Shown: positions 39,174-58,053, numbered from the stretch's first letter. The stretch is 64,000 bases of DNA from Halobaculum limi (GCF_029490015.1 NZ_CP120469.1:124001-188000); one strand, 5' to 3'. Program-made: numbers and translations. Notes: generated by a model not told the origin, from the letters alone.

Positions 39174-39411
39174 AAGGCCAGGCCGGAATTTGAACCCGGT
39201 CTCTCGTCTTTCAAGAAGTTGACACGTCCCGAGGCCTGGAAACGGCGTTTTGACCGTCATCAGAGGACAGGTTTTCACTCTGTTTCTCTGATCGCCGTTC
39301 CGTCTTGGACTTCCCTGTTTTCTCCGGTGTCAGAGGGTTTCTGCGTAGGAGTAGTATTGTAGCGCACCCCCTTGAAACACCGGGCAAGCAGGCTCTCGGC
39401 CTGAGTCATAA
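39174..39411. repeat. Left direct repeat with tRNA-like T-arm (attL candidate)
   Basis: AGGCCGGAATTTGAACCCGG is, on the minus strand, a T-arm (CCGGG-TTCAAAT-TCCGG) followed by an acceptor-like CCTGGCC. About 185 bp further, GAAACACCGGGCAAGCA (39374-39390) and CTCTCGGCCTG follow. The same order and spacing recur at 55414-55655. The D-arm half of a tRNA is absent, so this is a tRNA fragment or mimic, not a gene. Confidence 0.6.
39275..39409 (-). CDS. 44-residue peptide inside the left repeat
   Basis: ATG 39409 starts 21 bp after the stop of the 441-residue gene and reads MTQAESLLARCFKGVRYNTT and on to DGTAIRETE. In the right repeat the same strand reads VIEQAERVLARCFEKDER before a stop, so the stretch QAE-S/R-x-LARCF is kept at protein level. 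It may be a real small protein or simply part of the repeat. Confidence 0.3.
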   Translation of the reverse strand: MTQAESLLARCFKGVRYNTTPTQKPSDTGENREVQDGTAIRETE

Positions 39412-39430: not shown

Positions 39431-40756
39431 CTATATCCAACCTGCCTGAATCGCTAACGAAATAGCACTTGATACCGCGATAACCAATGTGAGAATCCCA
39501 CCAATCTTCTGTAAGCTCTTGGCCGATTCATTCTGAGACTGAATCTTATTTTGCAGATCAACAGTTTCGATGGTCGAATTTAACTCTATGTTAGAACGGA
39601 CTAACTCAATCGAGTCATTGTACTTCTCAACGAGGTCTTCATACTCTTCTTTAGCGTAATCCTCGACCTCACCGGCGCTATCCACAAGTGTAGCTATGAA
39701 GCCCTTACGTTTACCAAACGGTTCAGATTCTTTAAACGAGTGCTGGATACTATCACTTTGTCTCGATATCTGTCTCCAATTCTCCTTCATCTCTTGCCGA
39801 TCTTTCTGTAATCCTTTCAATAAGTCATACTGAGCTTCGTAGTCTATAGAGTCCTCTAATGGTTCGTGCTCAGGATTCTTCTCGTTGTGAAAGTTGTAGT
39901 ACCCATAGAGAGACCACATTAGCTTTTCAAAAATCATAGAGAGACTACTGTATCCTTGACGAGTATACGTAGATCCAATTGGATCACCATCCCTGCTGTA
40001 CCGGCTTCCAGATCCTTCGGAGTGGAAGTTCGTAAGTATACTTCTGAATCTGAAGCTGCCTACAGAACTCTCAAACTTTCTGCGACCTGCGAAAACATAT
40101 CTCTCCTTGTCACCATATTGCTGAATTTCTTCACTCAGATTAGAGACGTGAATATCGTCTATCCCGTACCAGAAGAGATCGTCTTCGCTCATAAAATCTT
40201 CAAGAGAATCAAGACTAGATTCTGAGAAATCAAATGACCAGAAACTTGGGTGGTACAATGACAGCCTGCCTGTATTCCAGGACTCTCTGTTCTTTGTGAA
40301 TATACCAACTTCCAACTCGTCCGCTATCAGGTCACTAAGAGCCTCAACAATCTCTTCAATCAAAACTTCGCCCGCAGACTGGTACTGATGTCCAATATAG
40401 TCTATGTCATCATCACGCTTCTCCTGTAACTTCTCCTCAAACCCCTTTTGGTCGATAACGCCGTACATAATACACCGGACTAACTCGTTTGTTGACGAAT
40501 TCCCTCGAAAGTAAACTGCTTCTAAGACTTCATCCAGAAGACCACTGACGGAGATCTCGTGGCGTGTCGTCCCAGTGGTGCCTGTGACTCGTTGATGTGT
40601 CTCTCTATCTGTTCCTGGTAAATCTTCTCGTGAATCTACCGCGAGATTGTTGAAATTTTCAACAAATTCATCTTCCTCATCTTTGCGGATCACTTCGACA
40701 ACTCCGATAGCCTCCAAGACTTCGGGATAATCGATAGGAGGAGTATTGTCTGGCAT
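39431..40756 (-). CDS. Hypothetical protein with coiled coil and C-terminal membrane helix
   Basis: 441 residues of no known family. N-terminal half: charged, with LLDEVLEAVYFRGNSSTNEL and IDYIGHQYQSAGEVLIEEIV. Residues about 310-415 are heptad-like (LLKGLQKDRQEMKENWRQIS, YEDLVEKYNDSIELVRSNIE, NKIQSQNESAKSLQKI). The last 20 residues form one hydrophobic helix (ILTLVIAVSSAISLAIQAGW). A single C-terminal anchor with a large cytosolic part is a layout seen in membrane-acting defence effectors. It follows the chimeric ATPase by 53 bp on the same strand. The effector role is inference. Confidence 0.55.
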   Translation of the reverse strand: MPDNTPPIDYPEVLEAIGVVEVIRKDEEDEFVENFNNLAVDSREDLPGTDRETHQRVTGTTGTTRHEISVSGLLDEVLEAVYFRGNSSTNELVRCIMYGVIDQKGFEEKLQEKRDDDIDYIGHQYQSAGEVLIEEIVEALSDLIADELEVGIFTKNRESWNTGRLSLYHPSFWSFDFSESSLDSLEDFMSEDDLFWYGIDDIHVSNLSEEIQQYGDKERYVFAGRRKFESSVGSFRFRSILTNFHSEGSGSRYSRDGDPIGSTYTRQGYSSLSMIFEKLMWSLYGYYNFHNEKNPEHEPLEDSIDYEAQYDLLKGLQKDRQEMKENWRQISRQSDSIQHSFKESEPFGKRKGFIATLVDSAGEVEDYAKEEYEDLVEKYNDSIELVRSNIELNSTIETVDLQNKIQSQNESAKSLQKIGGILTLVIAVSSAISLAIQAGWI

Positions 40757-40809: not shown

Positions 40810-41664
40810 TCAGTCTGAATCCCCAAGAACAGCGTCTTTGTGAGTGAGCTTACTTCGACTCTCTGAATCTGCCTTTCTTCCGGCTCTTAGTAGTGTTTCG
40901 AGTGCTTCCCTACAGTCTCCACTGTTCTCTGCCACCTGTTCCGCGATCTCCTCAATAACCTCGTCGGGTACTGTTCCGGGTTTGAAGGCCTGTTCCACTC
41001 GTTTAGATAGTATGTCTTGTAGTTGTGGTGCGTTGTAGGAGTTGAACTGGAGTGTCTGGCAGTTCAAACGCGATTGGCTTCGTGGATCTAGCTGTACCTT
41101 TTGAGGTGGTTGATTCGACACCATTACGATTCCCAGGCTGTTTTCGGCTTCCTGGTTCAGCATTTGCAGGTCGTAGATGATCTCCGTTTTCTCCTGCAAC
41201 TGGTCGAACTCATCAATCGCTACTGCGACTCCACGGTTCTTGTCCAACCATTCCTTGAGCTTGGAGAGTAGTTCGTCGATTGGTTTTCCTTTTCGCGGCG
41301 CAGGATATCCGAGTTGAATCAGTAACTCAGTCAATAGTGATGAACGGGTGTTGTACTGCCAGGCGTTGATGTAGACTGACTTCGCCCGCGTATTCTCTTC
41401 CAAACGGTCGAATACATGTTTGACACAGGTGGTCTTCCCGACTCCAGCAGGCCCGTACAGCAACAGATTCTCCGGTGTCTTCCCTCGTGTTAGCGGTCGG
41501 ACTGCGTCCGCTATTCTCTGTATCTCTGTTTCTCTGCCGACTGGTTCATCTGGGCTCATCTCTCTCTTAATGTACATCTCGTAAATCTGCTCCGCAGAGA
41601 CACGAGTACCCTCGACTCGCGGCTTACCGCCTAAAACACCCTCCGTTTCGATTATCTCCGACAT
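40810..41664 (-). CDS. Chimera: DUF433 antitoxin N-terminus fused to Orc1/Cdc6-like AAA+ ATPase
   Basis: 284 residues. Residues 1-40 (MSEIIETEGVLGGKPRVEGT, then RVSAEQIYEMYIKREMSPDE) match the DUF433 protein encoded at 49115-49333 at 29 of 40 positions. From PVGRETEIQRI (41) on, the protein is an Orc1/Cdc6-like AAA+ core: Walker A GPAGVGKT (71-78), Walker B AVAIDEFDQL with Asp151-Glu152, and a lid region ending in NSGDCREALETLLRAGRKAD. The C-terminal winged helix of replication initiators is missing. The Walker motifs are intact, so ATPase activity is plausible. Origin binding is doubtful. Confidence 0.8.
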   Translation of the reverse strand: MSEIIETEGVLGGKPRVEGTRVSAEQIYEMYIKREMSPDEPVGRETEIQRIADAVRPLTRGKTPENLLLYGPAGVGKTTCVKHVFDRLEENTRAKSVYINAWQYNTRSSLLTELLIQLGYPAPRKGKPIDELLSKLKEWLDKNRGVAVAIDEFDQLQEKTEIIYDLQMLNQEAENSLGIVMVSNQPPQKVQLDPRSQSRLNCQTLQFNSYNAPQLQDILSKRVEQAFKPGTVPDEVIEEIAEQVAENSGDCREALETLLRAGRKADSESRSKLTHKDAVLGDSD

Positions 41665-41859: not shown

Positions 41860-44800
41860 CTAGACTCCAGAGTCAGCCAGAACCCCCCACTTCTGTATCC
41901 GATCCTGATGGGGCCACATTAATCTCCTAGTCCAACTCATTACGTTGGAAAAGAATTCTTCAGCGGCTATCTCTCCTTCAGTTCTCTTCACAATCCATAA
42001 CAACTGAGGGAATATGGACTGATATCCTTGAGTATCGAGACGGCTCTTATTCCAACCATTCAGCACACTCTGCAAGGCTTTCTCCTCATCTATATCTAAG
42101 AGAGCATCGGCAACTCTCTCAAACCTGTTACTGCCTCCTCCCAGCCACGAGTTAATTAGATCACGCTCAGCGATCACATTCTCCAACAATAGAATAGCCT
42201 GTTCCTCGTTTCCCCTCTCTGCCAAGAGCCGGGAGATAGGAGCTGCAGCTGTCGGATTATACCTCGTAGAATCTACTGAATTGTTCTGAAGTAGATCACC
42301 AGCTGTAGAGAGCTCCTCTGATGTTAGATCGTCAAAATCACTCATCGTAAGAGGATCTTCTTCTGAATGTTGAGAAAGAATCTCGTGAATACGTTCATCC
42401 TCTGGTTCCACTCCCTCTGATTCCGTTTCATATTCACTAGACCCGTTTTCTGAATCCAGATCTTCAGGGAGATCTACACAGTATTCCGATTCCAACTCTC
42501 GGAGTTTCTCTTTTTGATCATCGCTGATGCCGTCTCGGACATAGTCGCCCCAACTCAAAGCCCGCAGAGCCTTCATAGCTAGTTCCTCCCATCCAAATTC
42601 ATCGGCAACTTCAGCAGCCTTAGAGAAGAACGGTAGCTCCATCTGTGAGGTGGGACCGCTACGGACTCTCATCTCTTTGGAGTCTATCAGTTGATACAGT
42701 TCCTCTTCAGTCATTTCTCCAGGATTCTCTAAACGCCATTTCCATAGCTTGCGTACCGTCGTAGGTTGTTGAGCGTTATTCTCGGCTACGTGATAATTGA
42801 TAGCACCTGAATCGAGGAGAGATTTCAGGAATATACCCTCAAAATGTTCGGTCCCCTTTCCATCTGTCATCTTATGTAGAAGATTTGCCCAGTTGATTAA
42901 CTGGATAGCTGTACCGAGATATTGATCCCATTCATCGTCTGCAATATCTTCCAACCCTTCCCAGACATCATCCAAGAACCCATCTTTCCTATACCCATAT
43001 CGGAAACAACGCTCAATTGCTTTCTCTGTATAATTTTCACCCCGGCTATTATATCCTGCTCTAGCCGCTCTAACAGCTAAATTCATAAGATCTCTTGACG
43101 GCGGCTCCTCCATAGGTGGCCTATTCAATAGCTCCTCATAACGACGATCCAAATTCTCAGGAAGAGCTTCTTCTGGAGGTAATTCCTCCCACGCCTGATT
43201 CAGACTCCTAGTAATTGTATCGAAGAACCGATCTCCAGAACCAATCTCCTCCGCAAATTCAAGAACCCGTCTCACAAGATCTTCTGACCCTTGATCAGCG
43301 ACTTCACCGAATGCTTCTGACACCTGAGAAACTGCTTGCCAATACCAGGTCTCAGCTACAGTCCTAGCACTCTCATCCAACAAGTACCCTTCCTCAAGCC
43401 GCTCTTCTAAGTATTCCAGGGTAGCATCCACCCAAACCTGCTTTTGGTCCGAAGATTCACGGGTTGCGGCTGCTCCCATCAATGCGAGAAGTTTCTGAGT
43501 TTTCGGTTGCTCTACAGCAATTTCGTCTACAATATCCTGCAGGTCTTCGGGTGATTCAACCAAGCTCGCTACTATAGAACCGACGTAATAGGCATCAGTA
43601 AACCGAACACCGCCCTCACTTGAAGTATCAAGAGGCTCACCTAATTCACGAGCTTCAACGATCTCACGAATTTCCTCCTCCACGCCTCCACATCTAAGCA
43701 GGGTGTGCAGTGCGGCAAAAGATAATTCTGAGTAGTCAGGTGCATTAGCTCTAAGTTCTTCACGCCAACCCTCAGGTAGATCGTAGATTAATCCTTCACA
43801 GGATTCTAATGCTGCAGATTTGTCCTCGAAAAACCATTCCGGTGGCTCAGGTTGACTATCAAATAATTCAGGTTTTCTCTGAACAGCAGAGAGAACTTCT
43901 CGTGGAAAATGTTGTCCCGTATCTAACCGTTTGATCTGTTCTGCTACCTCCCAGAACTCCTCAGTATCTAAAACTTCAGAAACGACTTCGAAGTACGCCT
44001 CAGGGTTCATATCTGGCTGTTCGGATTCCTGATAATCCTCTTCCCACGACGCGAGCCAGTTTCGATCTAATTCACTTTCCCAGTTCCGCGCCACAGTCTG
44101 CATCGCTTCAAGCGCCTCCTCACTACCACCATTATATCCGCGAATCTGATCCACTAAGCGAAGAGCGTCATCACGTCTATCTTGAGCGGCATAGTATGTG
44201 AGACGCAAGTCGTCGCCTGTGTAAATATCAAGCATATTTCGAGCGACACCACCAAGGATTACACAGTCAAAAGCCGTGACGTAGTCTCCTTGTTGAAGCG
44301 AGGCCTCGAAAGCCAGATCTAGAGTATTGGAAAGATGGTCTAGTTGAATTCCTTTCTGCCACCATTGTAGAAGATTATCGAGAGTCGCTAGATCCTTGAG
44401 TATGGCCCGCCCTGGACCATTCTCGGCGTGGTATCTCAGACTCTCCAGATTTTGAGGAAAACTGATACACTGGTCAAACAGGTAGTCGAATAACCGTTTA
44501 TGACCTTGAACAATTTCTTCTTGATCTAACAGCTCCTTTGTGTACTTCCTGAAGCTGTCGTGAAACACTCGAAACCGATCTCCTTCCAAGGACTCTAGAA
44601 TATGAGCAAGAGGGGCATCCTCAAGACGTGTGCTTTCTAGCGTATACGGTAAATCAATCACAGAATCTATAGTCTCTTCACGCAATCCGGTAGGATTCAG
44701 CGCAACTAACGTGACCGCATCTCTCTCATACGGTTCTAGTGGCTCCCAGATCGTATCATAATACTCCTCCAGCTCTCCATCGACATGTGATGCCTCATCA

Positions 44801-46332
44801 ATTACCTCCTCTATATCTACACCCTGGATTTCAGCTTTCGTTACAAGATGCGAAATAATAACAGGAAGGCCTCCAGAGACACCTGATACCCGTCCAACAA
44901 GATCATCATCCAGCGATACATCTCTTCTCTCAAGATACTCTCTAATTTCTTCTGGACTCCAAGAAGGTACCTCAATCTGCTGATCAACTCGAAGAGTGTC
45001 GTGAGACTCTGAAATTTCACGGCTCACCATGAATAACCCCAATGGATCAGGAAAGTCAAGCATCCCAATCTCTTCAAGAGCAGAACCCTCCGCAGACTCT
45101 GTAGCTTTAGTACCTCCAAACGGCCGCAATGCGTGATCTAACCCGTCGAAAATAAATAGAACTCTTTGATTTTCTTGATCTGCCCAGTGGGCCACGTTGT
45201 CAATATATTCTTGCAAATCCTCTGTCCCCGTCCAGACGGGAATCGAAGTATCCTCTCCAAACGCTTCTGAAAATGTTGAATAGATTTGATATGCGAGTTG
45301 ATGTCTAAACCATTTAGGATCACTCCACTTCATCTCCAGCGAATCGGCGTCCTCAGGTATATAGAAATAAAACCGGAGTGTTCGACAATCTTCTGAGTCC
45401 CCCCACGCCCTGTGAAACAGTTCTATACCCACTGATTTTCCGCTTCCTGGAGCACCTTCAACTAAAAATCGATCACTTGGGTCATCATACGCCTCCTCAA
45501 GATCTTCAAGCCATCTTGGGTGAATATATTCATCAGGGAGTTCAAACTTCTGAGGAAATTGTTCTGACGGAATTAATTCTAAACGCTGTATGATCTCTTC
45601 ACGGTCCAACCTTCGTATATCAGTTGGTTGATTTCTGGCCCATCTCGCTAACCCAACCGCTTTTTGTGTAAGTGACTCCGGATCATCAATCTCAGGATTC
45701 TCCCTAACATCCAAACGCGGAGCAACACCCCCTACAATACGTTCAAACAACTCTGTATTTCGAGGTGACTCAATTTCTTCTTCGTCCGTAGTTGTCCCTA
45801 TACCAGGCACCCCTAGTACGAATTCTATCCCTTCGTCTTCTACGTATCCTCCTCTAAATTCAGTAAGCTTCTTTGCCTCAAACTCAAGACTTCCGAACAG
45901 TGAGAGGTTTTCTGTTTCATCTGAAAACTCAATTCCAGATCCAGTTTCATCTTCGAATGAAGTTAGAACCACAAAGCGTGACCCTTCATCTGCCACCCTA
46001 CGAGCTTCCGCAGATTCGGATAAGTCGGTGAAATCTAATCCTCTTTCATTGGATCCTGTGAGGTCGCTAGAAATAAGCCTGTGTTCCGGCCCGTTTTTAA
46101 CTTGAAGACAGGTTTTCTCACCAGATTTTTCTAGGACAATATCGTCGAATTTGTCGCTATTATATAACTTTGATTCTATAGCAACGGCATTCGCGTCTTC
46201 AAAGAAAACTGATAGAATACAAGCTCCAGCGAGAACATCTTGGAAAGTGTATCCCCTAGCCAGACCTGCCAACCGTTTTGTACTGGCGGAAACCTCAGCA
46301 TTGTCGGATGTAGTGTCCGTTTCTTCTGGCAT
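41860..46332 (-). CDS. Avs-like STAND NTPase with Cap4-type nuclease domain
   Basis: 1490 residues from ATG 46332, preferred over ATG 46350 because GGAGGG lies 8 bp upstream. Residues 20-175: Cap4/DUF4297-type nuclease, RGYTFQDVLAGACIL, Glu53 (AIESK), Asp63-Asp64 (KFDDIVLE), Gln77-Val-Lys79 (CLQVKN). Residues 270-600: STAND NTPase with Walker A GAPGSGKS (293-300) and Walker B VLFIFDGLDHA (391-401). The remaining 850 residues are helical repeats, the sensor region in such proteins. Bacterial Avs proteins of this build recognise viral proteins and then cleave DNA. It follows an AAA-TPR gene by 55 bp and probably shares its transcript. Function by homology of architecture only. Confidence 0.72.
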   Translation of the reverse strand: MPEETDTTSDNAEVSASTKRLAGLARGYTFQDVLAGACILSVFFEDANAVAIESKLYNSDKFDDIVLEKSGEKTCLQVKNGPEHRLISSDLTGSNERGLDFTDLSESAEARRVADEGSRFVVLTSFEDETGSGIEFSDETENLSLFGSLEFEAKKLTEFRGGYVEDEGIEFVLGVPGIGTTTDEEEIESPRNTELFERIVGGVAPRLDVRENPEIDDPESLTQKAVGLARWARNQPTDIRRLDREEIIQRLELIPSEQFPQKFELPDEYIHPRWLEDLEEAYDDPSDRFLVEGAPGSGKSVGIELFHRAWGDSEDCRTLRFYFYIPEDADSLEMKWSDPKWFRHQLAYQIYSTFSEAFGEDTSIPVWTGTEDLQEYIDNVAHWADQENQRVLFIFDGLDHALRPFGGTKATESAEGSALEEIGMLDFPDPLGLFMVSREISESHDTLRVDQQIEVPSWSPEEIREYLERRDVSLDDDLVGRVSGVSGGLPVIISHLVTKAEIQGVDIEEVIDEASHVDGELEEYYDTIWEPLEPYERDAVTLVALNPTGLREETIDSVIDLPYTLESTRLEDAPLAHILESLEGDRFRVFHDSFRKYTKELLDQEEIVQGHKRLFDYLFDQCISFPQNLESLRYHAENGPGRAILKDLATLDNLLQWWQKGIQLDHLSNTLDLAFEASLQQGDYVTAFDCVILGGVARNMLDIYTGDDLRLTYYAAQDRRDDALRLVDQIRGYNGGSEEALEAMQTVARNWESELDRNWLASWEEDYQESEQPDMNPEAYFEVVSEVLDTEEFWEVAEQIKRLDTGQHFPREVLSAVQRKPELFDSQPEPPEWFFEDKSAALESCEGLIYDLPEGWREELRANAPDYSELSFAALHTLLRCGGVEEEIREIVEARELGEPLDTSSEGGVRFTDAYYVGSIVASLVESPEDLQDIVDEIAVEQPKTQKLLALMGAAATRESSDQKQVWVDATLEYLEERLEEGYLLDESARTVAETWYWQAVSQVSEAFGEVADQGSEDLVRRVLEFAEEIGSGDRFFDTITRSLNQAWEELPPEEALPENLDRRYEELLNRPPMEEPPSRDLMNLAVRAARAGYNSRGENYTEKAIERCFRYGYRKDGFLDDVWEGLEDIADDEWDQYLGTAIQLINWANLLHKMTDGKGTEHFEGIFLKSLLDSGAINYHVAENNAQQPTTVRKLWKWRLENPGEMTEEELYQLIDSKEMRVRSGPTSQMELPFFSKAAEVADEFGWEELAMKALRALSWGDYVRDGISDDQKEKLRELESEYCVDLPEDLDSENGSSEYETESEGVEPEDERIHEILSQHSEEDPLTMSDFDDLTSEELSTAGDLLQNNSVDSTRYNPTAAAPISRLLAERGNEEQAILLLENVIAERDLINSWLGGGSNRFERVADALLDIDEEKALQSVLNGWNKSRLDTQGYQSIFPQLLWIVKRTEGEIAAEEFFSNVMSWTRRLMWPHQDRIQKWGVLADSGV

Positions 46333-46387
46333 TAGATGTCCCTCCACCATTCGTAGCAGATTTTTATCGAACTACTCATCTCAGGCC

Positions 46388-48937
46388 TCACTCTTCCTCC
46401 TCTTGTGCGGAATTTTCTTCTTCCAGTTCTAAAGGGGTGGAAAGCTGTTCTATCTCAGATTCTGAAAGCTCAGGTAGATCTGCGTCAAGGGCGTCCGTAA
46501 TACCTGTCTGCTTCAGTGACTCAATCGCTTCTTCACCCTTCCCTAGCTCCATCTCGGCCATCGCCTTATTGTACCACGCCTGATTATTTCCGGGCTGTTC
46601 CTCGACCACCTTTTGGTAGTATTCCAAAGCCTCCTCATACTCTCCCACCTCAGATAAGGCAATAGCGTAGTTATGATTGACTTCAGACATCGGAGGAAAA
46701 CTAGAATGATCCTGATCTCGATCTTCTAAGAGTGTTTCAAAGTGCGGGATAGCCCGGTTAAAATCACCTAAGTTTAGATGGCAGAGAGCTTCCGCATAGA
46801 CTGGAATAGGGCTCTCTGAGTTGAGCTTCTTCGCCCTCTCAAATGAGTCTACGGCGTCCTCAAATCTACCTAGATTCATCAAAGCTCTACCTTTGTTGTG
46901 CCATGAGTTCCAGTCCCCGGAATTCTCGTCCGTAGCTTGCTCTAGAAGACTCAGTGCTTCCTCTGGTCTCTCCTCATCGACAAGTATGATACCTTTTTGT
47001 TTCAGCACCTGAGCCCAGCTCGGGCGTAGTTCAAGAGCTTCATCGTAGCAATTGAGGGCTTCCCCTGTCTCACCTATGTTCTGATGCATCAAGCCCTTGT
47101 TTGCCCATGCTCGTGCAAACGAAGAGTTGATTTCCAGCGCCTCTTCATACAGTTGAATAGCCGCTTCCAGATTGCTACTCTCTGATGCCTCAACAGCTTC
47201 AGCATAATACTGTACCTCCTCTTCCAGCAAAATGTCGTAACCCAAGTATTCCAGTTTATTTCCAAGGGTATTCAATCGGTCTTCCAGACGTTCTGACTGA
47301 CTTTCTCCCTCATCAACAAACCTTACCTGTGAAACAAATCCCTGATCCATCCACTCTACATCACAGCGAAATCGTGTAGCATTGGAGAGATTTTGATAGA
47401 ACTTCTCTCTTTCATCGGGACTAAACTCTACTATAGCCCTGCTTTCTCCCGCAGGAACAGTCAGATTAGCTGTTAGCATAAAGAGCTGCTTCCCTTCACC
47501 TACATCCATTTCTTCGCCAAGCCTCTCCCCTACCTCAGCTCCTCGATCAAAAACGGTGTGTACTCTGTACTCTGAGAACTCGTCGGTTAGAAATATCTCC
47601 TCCACGAGCTTTTGATAGAGATTCTGAACAGTACTCCCCATCATACCCGGTCTGAATTCACCGACGTCATCGATGACTCCTTCAGAAGCTGCGTAGTACT
47701 TCAGATAGGTCTTATCAAACTCACTGCCGGCAAAAGATAGGTTCCCATCTTCATCTTCCTGGATCATTCCCTGATTGGAAAGAGAGTCGATAGTGTGTTC
47801 CTTGCTACTTCTCACCGAAGACAGGTTGTCGGGTTCTATCGTCTCCACCCTATCAAGGAGGCAGAACTCAACCAACCACTCCTTAGGAACCCTAGGGAAC
47901 TCCAGAAGAGATACGAGAACCTGAAGTTGGTTTGGGAGTAACCGCTTGACATCGTCAGCTATCTCGTGATGACCTGACTCGCGGATTCTATCCAGTTCCT
48001 CTGCTACGTCATCCAAGACTTCCGGAGTAAGCGTGATTTCATCCGCACCCTCGTTGTAACGCCTGTACATATGGTGCGCTATGAGATTGATTTCGTAGGG
48101 TGAACCACCCGTTATACCGTGAATCTCGCCGACACATTGATCGTCTAAATCTTCTTCTTCGTCCTCTGAAAGCGGCTTTGTGATACACTCCTTGGTCTTT
48201 TCCTGTGATTCAAACGGTCCAAGAGAAATCCTCTTGAAAAGTCTTGACATAGGAGAGAACACCTCATCTGTTCGCTCGAATAGCTCTTCAGTTCCTGAAA
48301 GAACTAGATTATACCCATCGATATCAGAGAACACATTTCGGATCTTCTGTAGGATGGCATCGTTCTTAGACAGCAAATCAGCTTCATCTAAAAGCAGGAC
48401 AATTGATTTCTTCCCATTGGATGCCACTTTTTCATATAGATCTTCCAAGTCGTCTGACAAAACTCTCTGGGGGATATCAGGATCGGGGTTTTGGCTCTGC
48501 ATTGCTCGAAGATAGGTAGATCCGTATCCAAGTGAGACCTCAACGTCTGGATCTAGACTTTCAACCTTATTTCGAAAGCTATCAAGAAGAGAGTCTCCAA
48601 TCACGCCTTTATCGGCCCCTTCAGCCATAATGCTGTCTAGAAGTTCTTTGAAGAATTTGAGCTGATCCTGCACTATCTGAGAGTCGAGAGAAATCTTAAC
48701 AGCAAGATGGTCTCCCTCGTCTGCAACTTCTTCTACTCGGTTGAGTAGGCTTGATTTGCCCGCTGCTCTGTTACCGGTTATCCCGATGTGATAGTAGTTG
48801 TCGGCTGCTGCCTGCGAGAGGTACCGTCTAATTTCCTGAAGCTCCTCTTCCCGATCTGCAAACCTTTGCTCTTCAGAAACAGGATTGAGAAAATTGTATG
48901 GATTGGGTGTGAAACCATCTCCGTCTGATCCTGACAT
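46388..48937 (-). CDS. AAA/ORC-type ATPase with C-terminal TPR array
   Basis: 849 residues from ATG 48937 (MSGSDGDGFTPNPYNFLNPV). Residues 20-330: P-loop ATPase with GITGNRAAGKSSLL (about 53-66), Walker B SIVLLLDEADLL (about 178-189), and sensor LVLSGTEELFERTDEVFSPM. A helical middle follows. From about residue 570 there are six or more TPR motifs (for example AAIQLYEEALEINSSFARAW, ALNCYDEALELRPSWAQV, EALEYYQKVVEEQPGNNQAW). It resembles STAND sensors, but no effector domain is apparent, so it may act with the Avs-like protein encoded 55 bp downstream. An upstream start would add 28 unlikely residues. Confidence 0.75.
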   Translation of the reverse strand: MSGSDGDGFTPNPYNFLNPVSEEQRFADREEELQEIRRYLSQAAADNYYHIGITGNRAAGKSSLLNRVEEVADEGDHLAVKISLDSQIVQDQLKFFKELLDSIMAEGADKGVIGDSLLDSFRNKVESLDPDVEVSLGYGSTYLRAMQSQNPDPDIPQRVLSDDLEDLYEKVASNGKKSIVLLLDEADLLSKNDAILQKIRNVFSDIDGYNLVLSGTEELFERTDEVFSPMSRLFKRISLGPFESQEKTKECITKPLSEDEEEDLDDQCVGEIHGITGGSPYEINLIAHHMYRRYNEGADEITLTPEVLDDVAEELDRIRESGHHEIADDVKRLLPNQLQVLVSLLEFPRVPKEWLVEFCLLDRVETIEPDNLSSVRSSKEHTIDSLSNQGMIQEDEDGNLSFAGSEFDKTYLKYYAASEGVIDDVGEFRPGMMGSTVQNLYQKLVEEIFLTDEFSEYRVHTVFDRGAEVGERLGEEMDVGEGKQLFMLTANLTVPAGESRAIVEFSPDEREKFYQNLSNATRFRCDVEWMDQGFVSQVRFVDEGESQSERLEDRLNTLGNKLEYLGYDILLEEEVQYYAEAVEASESSNLEAAIQLYEEALEINSSFARAWANKGLMHQNIGETGEALNCYDEALELRPSWAQVLKQKGIILVDEERPEEALSLLEQATDENSGDWNSWHNKGRALMNLGRFEDAVDSFERAKKLNSESPIPVYAEALCHLNLGDFNRAIPHFETLLEDRDQDHSSFPPMSEVNHNYAIALSEVGEYEEALEYYQKVVEEQPGNNQAWYNKAMAEMELGKGEEAIESLKQTGITDALDADLPELSESEIEQLSTPLELEEENSAQEEEE

Positions 48938-49114
48938 ACAAGCAATCTTGTCTGTAACCTTGTTATAACTGAGGGAGCAATCGGAGTGAACCGTTGAGCA
49001 GCCAGTAGTATGTAGGAGCAAAGAACCAATCAGCTGAACTTGGATTAGGTGACGGAATTATTCGGTGTTCACCAGACATTCTTAAATCAGTTCAGTGATA
49101 ATTTTGGGATAGTT

Positions 49115-49333
49115 ATGTCAAAGGTCGTTGAGACAGAGGGTGTTTTAGGCGGTAAGCCTCGGATTGAGGGAACCCGTGTCTCTGCAGAGCAGGTATACGA
49201 AATGCACACTCAGAAGGATATGAGTCCGGAAGAAGTAGCTGATATTCTACCCACTGTCGCTGTTGAAGATGTGAAGGCTGCTATCCAGTATATGAAGGAT
49301 AGAGATGATTCTGAAGCTGATGTACTGGCTTAG
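49115..49333 (+). CDS. DUF433 antitoxin
   Basis: 72 residues from ATG 49115: MSKVVETEGVLGGKPRIEGT, then RVSAEQVYEMHTQKDMSPEE and VADILPTVAVEDVKAAIQYM. This is a complete DUF433 domain (VapB-like antitoxin paired with DUF5615 PIN-like toxins). Its first 40 residues recur at the start of the chimeric ATPase at 40810-41664. The toxin remnant lies tail to tail with 4 bp overlap, not in the usual same-strand order. Confidence 0.85.
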   Translation: MSKVVETEGVLGGKPRIEGTRVSAEQVYEMHTQKDMSPEEVADILPTVAVEDVKAAIQYMKDRDDSEADVLA

Positions 49334-49685
49334 AAACGACCATAGAAATTGGAGATAAAGACTACGTTCTCCTCTAATTCTTCTTCGTGTTCTTGTAGAA
49401 GATTTGAGACGGTTTTCGCTACCAGTGATTTGTCTCGAAGGTGCATCTGCTTGTCAATCAGAACACCTGGATGATCCATCTGCGTATCCATTGCGATGAA
49501 ATCTCCCTGGTCTCGTGTGAGAACCGGTGCGTCTTCACTGACCGCGTACTGCATAACCTCCTGATCAGAAATACCGGGCTTTGGCCGTAGCGTATTGATG
49601 CCTCGTCCCTCTAATTTCTCTTCGATTATTTTATCTATGCTTTCGTCAAGTACAATCGTTGAAACGGCTTCAGCACCCTGTATAG
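49330..49685 (-). pseudogene. DUF5615 PIN-like toxin, no start codon found
   Basis: The open frame from below TAA at 49686-49688 reads EAVSTIVLDESIDKIIEEKL, then RPKPGISDQEVMQYAVSEDA and PVLTRDQGDFIAMD. This is the DUF5615 (Mut7-C/PIN-like) layout with acidic residues in LDES and RDQGD. No ATG or GTG precedes IVLDES. The first Met (49554) lies inside the domain. The toxin is therefore probably inactive, unless an unusual start (ATT) is used. It overlaps the antitoxin gene tail to tail. Confidence 0.6.
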
Positions 49686-52735: not shown

Positions 52736-53170
52736 TTAGAATGGTCCATCTTTTGACTGCCTCATACTGTAGTTCTCTGTTTGTGAGATGATGACGTGGT
52801 CAAGTAGTTCGACGTTGATTTTCTCCAGTATTTTCCGGGCTTCCTGCGTGACTTCTACGTCTTTGGTTGTGGCCTCTGCTTTGCCTGAGGGGTGGTTGTG
52901 TACGAGGATGACTGCGCCGGCGTTGGTGAGTGCGGCGGTTCTGACCACGTCCTGTAGGTCTGTTTCGACGGTGTCACGGCTTCCTAATCCGATTATTTTG
53001 TCTCCGATGAACCGGTTGCCGTTGGTGAGGAAGACGGCGTATAGGTGCTCCTTTTGCTCGTATTTCAGGGATTCGTACCTGTTGATGACGTCGTGAAGCG
53101 ATTTTACCGTGTCCGGGTCCTGTTCCTGTACTTCGGCTTTGACCGTGAGGTTGCCGAGTTCCTGCTTCAC
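52736..53170 (-). CDS. radC: RadC/JAB-domain protein
   Basis: 144 residues from GTG 53170. The JAMM metal site is complete: Glu in KYEQKEHLYAVFLTNGN, then ILVHNHPSGKAEATTKDVEV with His-x-His and Asp. RadC proteins are typical of mobile elements and anti-restriction or recombination islands, and their activity is unsettled. It sits 6 bp behind the 53177 gene and 88 bp ahead of the HTH gene. The family call is firm. The symbol is by family. Confidence 0.85.
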   Translation of the reverse strand: MKQELGNLTVKAEVQEQDPDTVKSLHDVINRYESLKYEQKEHLYAVFLTNGNRFIGDKIIGLGSRDTVETDLQDVVRTAALTNAGAVILVHNHPSGKAEATTKDVEVTQEARKILEKINVELLDHVIISQTENYSMRQSKDGPF

Positions 53171-54094: not shown

Positions 54095-55217
54095 TCAGTC
54101 TATGTTGTTGACTGCGTCTTGTTGCCGGGTGGTGGAGCTGTGTTCGTATTTTTCAGTGGTGCGTTTGGATTTGTGGCGGCATTGTGCGGCGGCTACTGCG
54201 AGTCCTTCTTGTTCGGCTACGTAGGTCGCAGTACTGTGTCTGATGCTGTATGGTGTTAGGTCTCGGTTTTCGAGGTCGAGTCCGGCTTCTGAGGCGATTT
54301 TCCGGAAGACGTCTCTGAAGCTGTCTTTGTTGTAGCGGTTGCCGTACATTGTGAGCCAGAGCGCGTTCCGACCGTCGTACTTCTCCCGAGTCTCCCTCTC
54401 GTCGAGCCACCTTTTCAGGATTTGACTGGTTTCTTCTTTGAGTGCGACTATCCAGTTCTCCCGGTTCTTGCTGCTTTCTTCTCGGGGTATTCTGAGTACT
54501 CAGTTTTCGGTGTCGACCCAGTGAACGTTCGAGCGTTTGATTTCGATAGGACGTAGACCTGCATCGAGTGCGACGTGGATCATTGAGGTGTATTTGAAGG
54601 AATTGGCTTTCTCCCAGTCTTTCATCGTGACTTCCGCTTTCGGTTTCTGCAGCCGCTGGGAGAGGTATGTATTCCACTTGTCGCGTTCACTGGGTGTTAC
54701 ACTGTTGTAGTGGTGTACACTTCCGTATTCCATGGCGGCTTCCCTCATTTCCGCCGATCTTCCTTGGTCAGGTAATCCCGTGGAGTATAAGTCGTAGATG
54801 GGTCGCTGTACTGGATTTCGGGATCCCACTCCACATCCTTGTTCCGGGCTTCACGTTTCCACTTGAACAACGTCTTCGCGGCTTTCTGGTAGTGGTTCTT
54901 TGTAGATTCTTTCATCTCCTCGGTGGTGAGGTGACGCATCCAGGTATCCGCGTCGTCCGTAGTCAGTTCTTTGACTTACCGACCTCTACGATCCCAGATG
55001 AAACGGTAGAACAGGTCAAGCCGATTCATCCTGTTCTTTGTCGTTGAGTGGCTGTAGCCGTGGCTTTGTCCGGGTTTTTGCCGAGGGCCAGCATCCACTC
55101 TGCGAGTTCGCGTCGGTGCTCGCGGTAGGTAACTTCCTGTCTCGGGTTTAGATACTCGCGCGCGTCTTCGGAGACGAGGACGATCCCGTCTACTTTGTTG
55201 TCTTCGCTGTACGTCAT
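54095..55217 (-). pseudogene. Tyrosine recombinase/integrase with several lesions
   Basis: Pieces of one integrase lie in order: SAM-like N-terminus (YREHRRELAEWMLALGKNPD; RHLTTEEMKESTKNHYQKAA), middle with Arg (LDAGLRPIEIKRSNVHWVDT), and catalytic end (LTPYSIRHSTATYVAEQEGL, CRHKSKRTTEKYEH with the Tyr). Lesions: frameshift after GKNPDKA near 55070, TAA after FIWDRRGR near 54975, frameshift near 54760 (DYLTKEDR / EMREAAMEYG), and TGA at about 54501 after VDTEN. At least four breaks make it inactive. Its place next to the right repeat marks it as the element's own integrase. Confidence 0.85.
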
Positions 55218-55413
55218 TTTCGACACCTCTGTCTAGAAACTAGATCGTTTACGCGACAATTTTAAATATATAATGTAATATGATTGTCTTTCCTCGAAAA
55301 CGCGTGACTGCGTCGGGGTACCGGAAATATCATCGGGTACTCGTTCTTGCGTGGTGCTCATTGTTTCACCGACGAAGAACCCGGTAACTACCGGACGTAG
55401 CAACGAGAGACAG

Positions 55414-55655
55414 CCCAGGCCAGGATTTGAATCCGGGCTCTCGCACTTACCAAGTCAACACCCGATTCCGAGGCCTGAAACACCGATTCTGGCTTTTTAC
55501 AGAAAACCAATCTAAATCCCTGATTCCCCGGGTGAATGCTGTCTTGCGATTCCCTGGTAAATCCGACAGATGAGCTTTGTCTCCGTCGATGTGATATTAC
55601 CGCTCATCCTTCTCGAAACACCGGGCAAGCACTCTCTCGGCCTGCTCAATAACAC
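55414..55655. repeat. Right direct repeat with tRNA-like T-arm (attR candidate)
   Basis: AGGCCAGGATTTGAATCCGG is the counterpart of the left repeat. GAAACACCGGGCAAGCA recurs exactly at 55615-55631, then CTCTCGGCCTG. Distance between the two landmarks is 189 bp here and 184 bp on the left. In the T-arm one pair is mismatched, so it is degenerate. Minus-strand text around 55450 looks like remains of an anticodon arm. Confidence 0.6.
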
Positions 55656-56197: not shown

Positions 56198-56253
56198 TCA
56201 AAAACTGACCGGACAGCAAGCCATTATAACCCCAGCTTCGCTGGAAGGTGTAT

Positions 56254-58053
56254 ATGGGATATCAGTCTCGGACGATCAAACAAGTCCTTCCGGACATCAA
56301 CGAGTCCATCTACTTGCCTGCAATCCAGCGTGAGTTTGTCTGGGAGACCGATCAGATCGTGCAACTGTTTGATTCAGTCCTCAGAGAGTACCCAATTGGC
56401 TCGTTCATCTTTTGGAATATTAACGGCGACTTCGCTGATGAGCAGATTAAGTACTACTTCGTTCGCAACTACATCGAGGATACGATCCATCCGAGTGAAT
56501 TCGATAACGTCCACCACCGGAATCCTAAGGTTCCAGAGTACGAGTCTGTCCCAGATTCGATCAGTCTTGTTGTCGATGGTCAACAGCGATTGACCTCGTT
56601 TTTGATCGGATTCAACGGGACATACGTAGAGAAACAAAAGTATCGCCAACGGCAGAATCCAGATGCTTGGACACGCAAGCAGTTGTATCTCAACCTGCTC
56701 TCCAATCCGAATGTCCAGTCGGAGGATAGACTGAACCTCCGGTATGAGTTCCAATTCAAGCCTCTCAATCCGGAACAATCGAGTGACGAATACTGGTTCC
56801 GGGTGAGTGATATTCTCGATGTGACCGATCTCAACGAGACGATGGCACTCCAAGAGGAGATTGAAGCCTCGATAGATGGGCTGACTGACGGCCAATCCAG
56901 CTATATTTTCAAGAATCTCCACGCACTCTACACAGCAATCCACGACCGAGAGGTCATCAACTACTACGAGGAAGACAAACAAGACAACGAACGGACGCTG
57001 GATATCTTTGTTCGGGCAAATGAAGGAGGCACCCAGCTCAGCCGGTCTGAGATTCTCCTGTCGATTGCAACGTCGTATTGGGGCAGTGATGAAGACAATC
57101 CAATCGACGCGAAAGAAGAGATCAATACATTCGTCAACGACCTGAACAAGGACTATCTGGATGAAGGGTATGACTTTGGTAGCGATTTCGTATTGAAGAA
57201 TCTGCTCGTCGCATCCGATCTCGACACCCAATACCGGATTCGGAACTTCACCCGCGAAAACCTCGAGCGGATGAAACAGGTTTGGGCGGATGGTGACGTG
57301 CAAGCGTCAATCGAGGGGGCTGTAGAGCTGTTGAGCCAATTTGGAATCACAGGGCGCAGCCTGACGTCTCGCAACGCGGTAATCCCGATTGCGTACTATC
57401 TGTATGCGAATGGGAATCCCCCGCTCACAACGGATTCGATACAGGGCGACAGCGTCCGCCCAAAGATCCTGGAGTGGCTCTGTTCGTCGATGCTGAACAG
57501 CAATTTCAATTCACGGCCTGATGAGATTCTCCAAGATGCTCGTGATGCAATCAAGGATGCAGATCCCGATGAGTTCCCGTTAGACCGAATTCAGCGTGAG
57601 ATTCGGGCACGTGGGAAGGCAGTCGGCTTCAGCGATGAGATCGTAGAGGACCTGTTTGACGAAACAGACTACAATTCAGTAAAGATCTACCTTCTATTGT
57701 CGGTGTTGTACTTCCCCGAGCCAGCGCTTGATGACTCCCACCAAGTGGACCATATCTTCCCACAGAAACTGCTCGAGAAAGACCATCTAATCGAAGAGCA
57801 CGGATTCTCTCCACAGAGGGCGGAGGAATACGAATCACTGCGGGATCACGTAGCGAATCTCCAGTTGATTCAGGAGAACCAGGAAAAGGGGTCGATGGAG
57901 TTCACCGAGTGGATCGAAACCCGTAGTAATCGTTACTTCGAGCGACACCACATTCCACGAGATGAGAGCCTCTATCAGGTTGAGCGATTCCCGGAATTCG
58001 TCGAGGCGCGGGACCAATTGTTGCGACAACACATTCGAGAGACGTTTGAGTAG
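56254..58053 (+). CDS. GmrSD/DUF262-type restriction-like protein
   Basis: 599 residues from ATG 56254 (RBS GGAAGGTG; GTG 56248 is an alternative). DUF262 start: YLPAIQREFVWETDQIVQLF, YPIGSFIFW, and the key DGQQR in SLVVDGQQRLTSFLIGF (108-112). The C-terminal HNH-like domain (DUF1524 type) has HQVDHIFPQKLL and later HVANLQLIQENQEKGSMEF. This is the single-chain form of GmrSD type IV restriction, which cleaves modified (glucosylated) phage DNA in bacteria. Monocistronic. Substrate here unknown. Confidence 0.85.
   Translation: MGYQSRTIKQVLPDINESIYLPAIQREFVWETDQIVQLFDSVLREYPIGSFIFWNINGDFADEQIKYYFVRNYIEDTIHPSEFDNVHHRNPKVPEYESVPDSISLVVDGQQRLTSFLIGFNGTYVEKQKYRQRQNPDAWTRKQLYLNLLSNPNVQSEDRLNLRYEFQFKPLNPEQSSDEYWFRVSDILDVTDLNETMALQEEIEASIDGLTDGQSSYIFKNLHALYTAIHDREVINYYEEDKQDNERTLDIFVRANEGGTQLSRSEILLSIATSYWGSDEDNPIDAKEEINTFVNDLNKDYLDEGYDFGSDFVLKNLLVASDLDTQYRIRNFTRENLERMKQVWADGDVQASIEGAVELLSQFGITGRSLTSRNAVIPIAYYLYANGNPPLTTDSIQGDSVRPKILEWLCSSMLNSNFNSRPDEILQDARDAIKDADPDEFPLDRIQREIRARGKAVGFSDEIVEDLFDETDYNSVKIYLLLSVLYFPEPALDDSHQVDHIFPQKLLEKDHLIEEHGFSPQRAEEYESLRDHVANLQLIQENQEKGSMEFTEWIETRSNRYFERHHIPRDESLYQVERFPEFVEARDQLLRQHIRETFE

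Follow-up and report, generated by a model that had tools for sequence, protein, structure and literature searches.

Nuclease-bearing Avs1-4 proteins recognise viral terminase or portal, oligomerise once the ligand is bound and then degrade DNA (PMC12931631). Two of them, Avs3 and Avs4 (AVAST types 3 and 4; Protein Data Bank (PDB) entries 8DGC and 8DGF), are built in the order nuclease, STAND NTPase and long C-terminal sensor. Here we describe a protein of the same order that is encoded in a stretch of 64,000 nucleotides of Halobaculum limi (NZ_CP120469.1:124001-188000), referred to as the window, in which all coordinates below are positions. In contrast to Avs3 and Avs4, this protein is archaeal and has no match to them at the sequence level, and its sensor has no specific match. 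In our view, it is probably a single-protein Avs-like (NLR-like) STAND immune sensor, carried as cargo by an integrated element, that would cut DNA once the sensor is triggered. The evidence that makes this reading probable consists of a fold match to Avs3, invariant residues, a profile match to bacterial proteins, patchily distributed full-length orthologues and defence genes in the neighbourhoods of the latter. No description of the family was found in the open-access literature. The gene and its parts are the following:

41860..46350, minus strand: Avs-like Cap4 nuclease-STAND-sensor gene, 1496 amino acids, alternative ATG at 46332, seven full-length orthologues
45553..46275, minus strand: Cap4/DUF4297-type PD-(D/E)XK nuclease domain, residues ~26-266 (E59, D69-D70, Q83-x-K85), predicted from VIA-align matches, invariant residues and a weak Pfam match
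44431..45543, minus strand: STAND/NACHT-like NTPase and the helical/winged-helix region after it, residues ~270-640 (Walker A 299-306, Walker B 398-406 FIFDGLDHA), from Pfam NACHT and Foldseek/VIA
41863..44373, minus strand: all-helical C-terminal solenoid, putative sensor, residues 660-1496, from an AlphaFold2 (AF2) model and DSSP
42781..43035, minus strand: conserved sensor island, residues ~1106-1190, Y1118-x3-K1122-D1123 ... T1162-D1163-G1164-x2-T1167, kept from bacteria to archaea

The gene is an unbroken open reading frame of 1496 codons that runs from 46350 to 41860. An earlier annotation made without database searches, hereafter the sequence-only reading, had placed its start at 46332. 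The reading frame itself was confirmed, but this position is the second ATG, six codons inside, and we prefer the start at 46350, from which residues are numbered here; Glu53, Asp63-64, Lys79 and Lys299 of the former numbering are therefore E59, D69-D70, K85 and K305. All motifs named at that stage were recovered, namely E59, D69-D70, Q83-V-K85, GAPGSGKS at 299-306 and FDGLDHA, followed by ~850 mostly helical residues. Compared to an orthologue of 68% identity, the differences at codon positions 1, 2 and 3 were 0.229, 0.155 and 0.579, respectively, as expected for a coding gene under constraint. Orthologues were searched in 391 and 392 genomes drawn from the class and the order, respectively, as overlapping samples. 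The proposed occurrence in haloarchaea was borne out by seven full-length orthologues with 34-68% identity, each from a different genus (hosts include Halorubrum halophilum, Halorutilus salinus and Halorussus halobius), which makes the family rare and patchy. A scan of genome contigs with the single protein gave nothing and with the alignment three loci, and viral contigs and phage records contained no relatives. In a seven-row haloarchaeal alignment, E59, D69, D70, Q83, K85, G299-x-P-G-x-G-K-S306 and D402-G-L-D-H406 were invariant, and D69, D70, Q83, K85, K305, D402, D405 and H406 stayed so after addition of seven bacterial relatives. Since these residues are invariant in the orthologues and the codon positions differ as in a coding gene, the observation is not due to chance, and conservation of the nuclease, the STAND NTPase and the helical solenoid together as a single unit is strongly supported.

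For assessment of the N-terminal part, residues 20-660 were modelled from a four-sequence alignment, with low confidence (mean predicted local distance difference test (pLDDT) score of 45). The top PDB match of this model was terminase-bound Avs3 (8DGC; Foldseek E 6e-7, probability 1.0, 608 columns), and Avs4 was also among the matches (E 8e-3). With VIA-align, Avs3 reached Z 10.2 over model residues 4-438 with 340 residues aligned, at a root-mean-square deviation of 14.3, which means that the nuclease and NTPase domains were not superposed as one body. The nuclease part alone matched LmuA (Z 10.2), the HerA-DUF4297 nuclease (9.6), HamA (8.6) and Cap4 (8.4) with deviations of 4 to 5. No Pfam model covered the N-terminus of the window protein, and the Pfam model Cap4_nuclease matched three of the eight family members weakly (best E 0.04); a scan of 292 haloarchaeal genomes with this model gave no match, but neither did the control genomes, and the scan is hence uninformative. 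The matches of the low-confidence model to the nucleases of Avs3, LmuA, HerA-DUF4297, HamA and Cap4 strongly support a predicted PD-(D/E)XK fold of the Cap4/DUF4297 type for the N-terminus. That this domain is fused to a STAND NTPase and on to a helical sensor, as had been suggested, is likewise supported, by Foldseek, VIA-align and the weak Cap4_nuclease matches.

The assignment of the central domain as a STAND NTPase is strongly supported by invariant Walker A and B motifs, by the Pfam model NACHT (E 1e-5; its 25.9 bits fall just short of 26.7, the curated cut-off for bacterial NACHT (bNACHT) proteins) and by structural matches to Avs3, ORC/Cdc6 and Apaf-1 in Foldseek and VIA-align. The C-terminal 897 residues are almost all helix according to DSSP in the AF2 model (pLDDT 65). 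Of the three parts for which structural likeness had been expected, the nuclease and the NTPase found their matches; the C-terminus, a predicted helical solenoid, matched generic solenoids only, and no TPR family was significant. There was no Avs entry in the VIA list for the sensor, an absence that does not exclude likeness to Avs.

Membership in a known Avs family, on the other hand, did not hold up. The PADLOC 2.0 profiles for Avs2-4 left the window protein unmatched at E<=1 and were absent from the tallied hits of the seven orthologues, NCBIfam gave no match for the window protein, and no Avs3 or Avs4 chain came up when PDB sequences were searched with the profiles of the family. The PADLOC profile Avs1b (PDLC02159) matched the NTPase region of five of the seven orthologues weakly (best E 5e-10), but the window protein is unmatched outside residues ~294-623 and has no Avs1a or Avs1c partner among the neighbours examined. 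Because the profiles for Avs2-4 are without match and Avs1b matches the NTPase only, we describe the protein as Avs-like in action and do not file it as a member. Of 194 haloarchaeal genomes, 6 have Avs2-type proteins as defined by the PADLOC Avs2 models (PDLC02163), and Haloferax volcanii also matches; judged by these profiles, Avs is not new to haloarchaea in itself and the window gene is not its first sign there. These proteins are likewise STAND proteins from the same archaeal class, but their sensors are unrelated to that of the window family: comparison with hhalign to four of them (L034-L037) gave a probability of 0.3% and E 0.21, and E 0.12 for the C-terminus. By eye, the N-termini of two Avs2-type proteins, L034 (325-4365) and L035 (919-4521), are HNH- and Mrr-like (G087 and G003 copies), which suggests that effectors may be swapped on one sensor type. 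Cap4 of CBASS, LmuA of Lamassu, the DUF4297 nuclease of HerA-DUF4297 and HamA of Hachiman are alike in the nuclease fold (Z 8.0-10.2) but differ in their sensing modules. The Pfam scan of the whole protein revealed no SAVED domain, by which a CBASS Cap4 would be recognised, and the C-terminus is all-helical; a HerA partner was not found either.

The nearest relatives outside haloarchaea are plasmid-borne bacterial Cap4-STAND proteins, drawn from a plasmid-only collection starting from a weak tblastn match to a Pseudoalteromonas plasmid protein, and two proteins of other archaea; they have one island of the sensor in common with the haloarchaeal family. When the profile of this family was aligned with those of three bacterial groups using hhalign, the E values were 1.3e-23, 2.9e-15 and 1.1e-12. 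All three matches take in the NTPase and the stretch that follows it, and two of them, including the one with E 1.3e-23, also cover the nuclease. The two archaeal relatives belong to other families of the same phylum; one is a complete nuclease-STAND-sensor protein of 2035 amino acids, and the other starts at the NTPase and adjoins a transposase-like open reading frame. A tree built from the NTPase region separates the eight haloarchaeal proteins from the rest by a branch with full support. The bacterial proteins (Klebsiella, Serratia, Pseudoalteromonas, Pseudanabaena, Cupriavidus, Pseudomonas aeruginosa) carry the nuclease, the NTPase and the sensor island as in the haloarchaeal form, but several of them have an extra C-terminal part of ~450 residues, either fused or encoded by a separate gene, which the haloarchaeal form lacks. 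Such a second gene, coding for 458-481 amino acids, follows the first one in Cupriavidus, Azonexus, Roseibium and P. aeruginosa, and its product corresponds to the final ~450 residues in the fused form of 1907-1922 amino acids in Klebsiella, Serratia and Pseudoalteromonas. Outside the nuclease/NTPase part, neither product of the two-gene operons (L028, L029, L046, L047) has a match among the PADLOC models, and no homologue of the bacterial second (B) gene was present in six frames of the window and the seven orthologue loci. The nuclease, the NTPase and the YGxRKD...TDGK island were thus found in one protein on both sides of the domain boundary, and on sequence grounds these proteins form a nuclease-STAND family common to bacteria and archaea that lies outside the Avs models tested.

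Outside ~90 residues around 1106-1190, the haloarchaeal and bacterial C-terminal halves share no sequence relation. When the profiles were restricted to the C-termini, the haloarchaeal and bacterial ones matched with E 2.6e-7, compared to 0.13-0.45 for reversed bacterial controls and 0.41 after deletion of the island. The consensus of the island is YGxRKD...TDGKxT, and Y1118, K1122, D1123, T1162, D1163, G1164 and T1167 were invariant in an alignment of 15 rows (eight haloarchaeal and seven bacterial). Five more relatives keep the KD but vary in the rest: Azonexus has F in place of Y, L058 reads TDQDHT and Moraxella TEDGKGI. In the low-confidence model, both motifs sit in turns after helices 502-518 and 542-562 (model numbering) and probably lie on the same edge of the solenoid. 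The pair of turns with K1122-D1123 and D1163-G1164-T1167 may be either a ligand-binding face or a latch that couples the sensor to the NTPase.

The gene lies on a replicon of 429 kb in a segment of low GC content (47% versus 58.5% to its left). It is cargo of an element of 16.3 kb between two repeats of 34 nucleotides in the same orientation that resemble the 3' end of a tRNA:

39175..39208, minus strand: left att-like repeat, tRNA 3'-end (T-arm) sequence, imperfect, with 4 mismatches to the 34-nucleotide core and 27 of 34 positions identical to the right copy
55412..55445, minus strand: right att-like repeat, tRNA 3'-end (T-arm) sequence, with 5 mismatches to the core
54095..55208, minus strand: decayed tyrosine integrase in three reading frames with one further stop, piecewise 65-75% identical to the intact Halorussus integrase L015:3338-4459

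Exact copies of the core are present in the Halorussus locus and the G317 locus, and shuffled sequence gave no matches to it. In the window, the decayed integrase lies just inside the right repeat, and in Halorussus an intact relative of this integrase, an LmuB-like gene, the orthologue and a second integrase are all enclosed by two exact core repeats. The repeats, the decayed integrase and the Halorussus counterpart confirm the integrated element that the sequence-only reading had suspected, and set its boundaries. Genes near the orthologues include integrases, a Lamassu LmuB-like gene (L015 5764-7473) and a QatC-like gene (L008 4142-5569); two orthologues have ParA genes nearby, along with Orc1/Cdc6 or transposase genes. 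Linkage to a housekeeping operon, which would have spoken for another role, was not seen in the loci compared.

The anatomy of the protein, being that of Avs1-4, makes ligand-triggered oligomerisation followed by DNA degradation its likeliest action. By this analogy, we infer autoinhibition, a viral ligand, oligomerisation and DNA cleavage as follows. In the resting cell, the solenoid would keep the protein inactive until the sensor binds a molecule specific to infection, most likely a viral protein, with terminase and portal among the candidates. ATP binding would then drive oligomerisation via the NTPase, and the clustered nuclease domains (E59, D70, K85) would become active and cut viral and probably also host DNA, whereby the infection would be aborted. 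Several results weigh against such an Avs-like sensor: the N-terminal model is weak, so that its fold matches depend on partly confident stretches, the Avs2-4 profiles are silent, and the solenoid resembles generic helical repeats only. The silent Avs2-4 profiles leave room for a NACHT/NLR-like defence nuclease that senses a cue other than terminase or portal, such as a protein made early by the virus, nucleic acid of foreign origin or a host chaperone that has been disturbed, a possibility to which we assign a little less than an even chance. It is favoured by NACHT being the nearest-scoring Pfam model for the NTPase and by the sensor having no detectable relation to haloarchaeal Avs2, and a precedent exists in bNACHT25, which is reported to detect phage via the host chaperone DnaJ (PMC12169576). 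Avs3 is nevertheless the best structural match over nuclease and NTPase, although this part does not set the ligand.

Protection of the integrative element or of a plasmid from competing plasmids or elements, instead of viruses, would fit the position of the gene in a tRNA-bounded element with its own integrase, the plasmid location of the bacterial relatives, though the collection held plasmids only, and the ParA, Orc1/Cdc6 or transposase genes near two orthologues. Defence genes are, however, often cargo of elements, so that location cannot separate the two readings, and virus sensing is known for the Avs3-like architecture; we therefore regard this function as unlikely. Less probable still, to the point of being very unlikely, is a role outside immunity, as a STAND regulator or toxin with a nuclease directed at host DNA under stress: STAND proteins include regulators too, but the patchy spread on mobile elements, the defence genes nearby and the lack of housekeeping linkage all argue against it. 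For an Avs-like immune sensor, the conserved patch in an otherwise fast-changing sensor makes the detected ligand testable, and a family of two domains of life with a single such patch offers a way to ask whether, in archaea as in bacteria, one sensor can read the same viral feature; such sensors evidently travel among haloarchaea on integrase-bearing elements. Packaging proteins of haloarchaeal tailed viruses are homologous to those of bacterial phages. The island could be the ligand contact and read something that viruses of both domains have in common, e.g. a fold element of a tailed-virus packaging protein; we consider this rather doubtful but, if true, the island would represent an epitope for pattern recognition that has been conserved on both sides of the divide between bacteria and archaea.

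Several neighbours of the gene were also inspected. A second STAND-like ATPase of 877 amino acids with at least six TPR repeats (46388-49021) is encoded on the same strand and ends 37 nucleotides upstream of the Avs-like gene. Downstream, a Cdc6/Orc1-like ATPase of 284 amino acids (40810-41664) lacks the C-terminal winged helix, and its first ~40 residues are like those of a DUF433 antitoxin. The start sequence of its gene is an inverted repeat of 121 nucleotides of the DUF433 gene at 49049-49333, and the DUF433-Cdc6 chimera therefore looks like a product of recombination. At the left end of the element, 39431-40756 codes for a protein of 441 amino acids whose C-terminus is hydrophobic and which matches no family. 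As candidate partners, these three genes were rejected, as they have no relatives beside the other orthologues except for general Cdc6 similarity. A GmrSD-type (type IV restriction-like) protein (56248-58053; PADLOC HEC-05, 592 bits) is encoded just outside the element, 10 kb from the gene. Inside the element, a short protein (52736-53170) shows, by eye, the HNHPSG motif of RadC/JAB-type proteins, and a short open reading frame facing the DUF433 gene (49330-49554) resembles, again by eye, part of a DUF5615/Mut7-C-type toxin, so that the two are possibly a truncated toxin-antitoxin pair.

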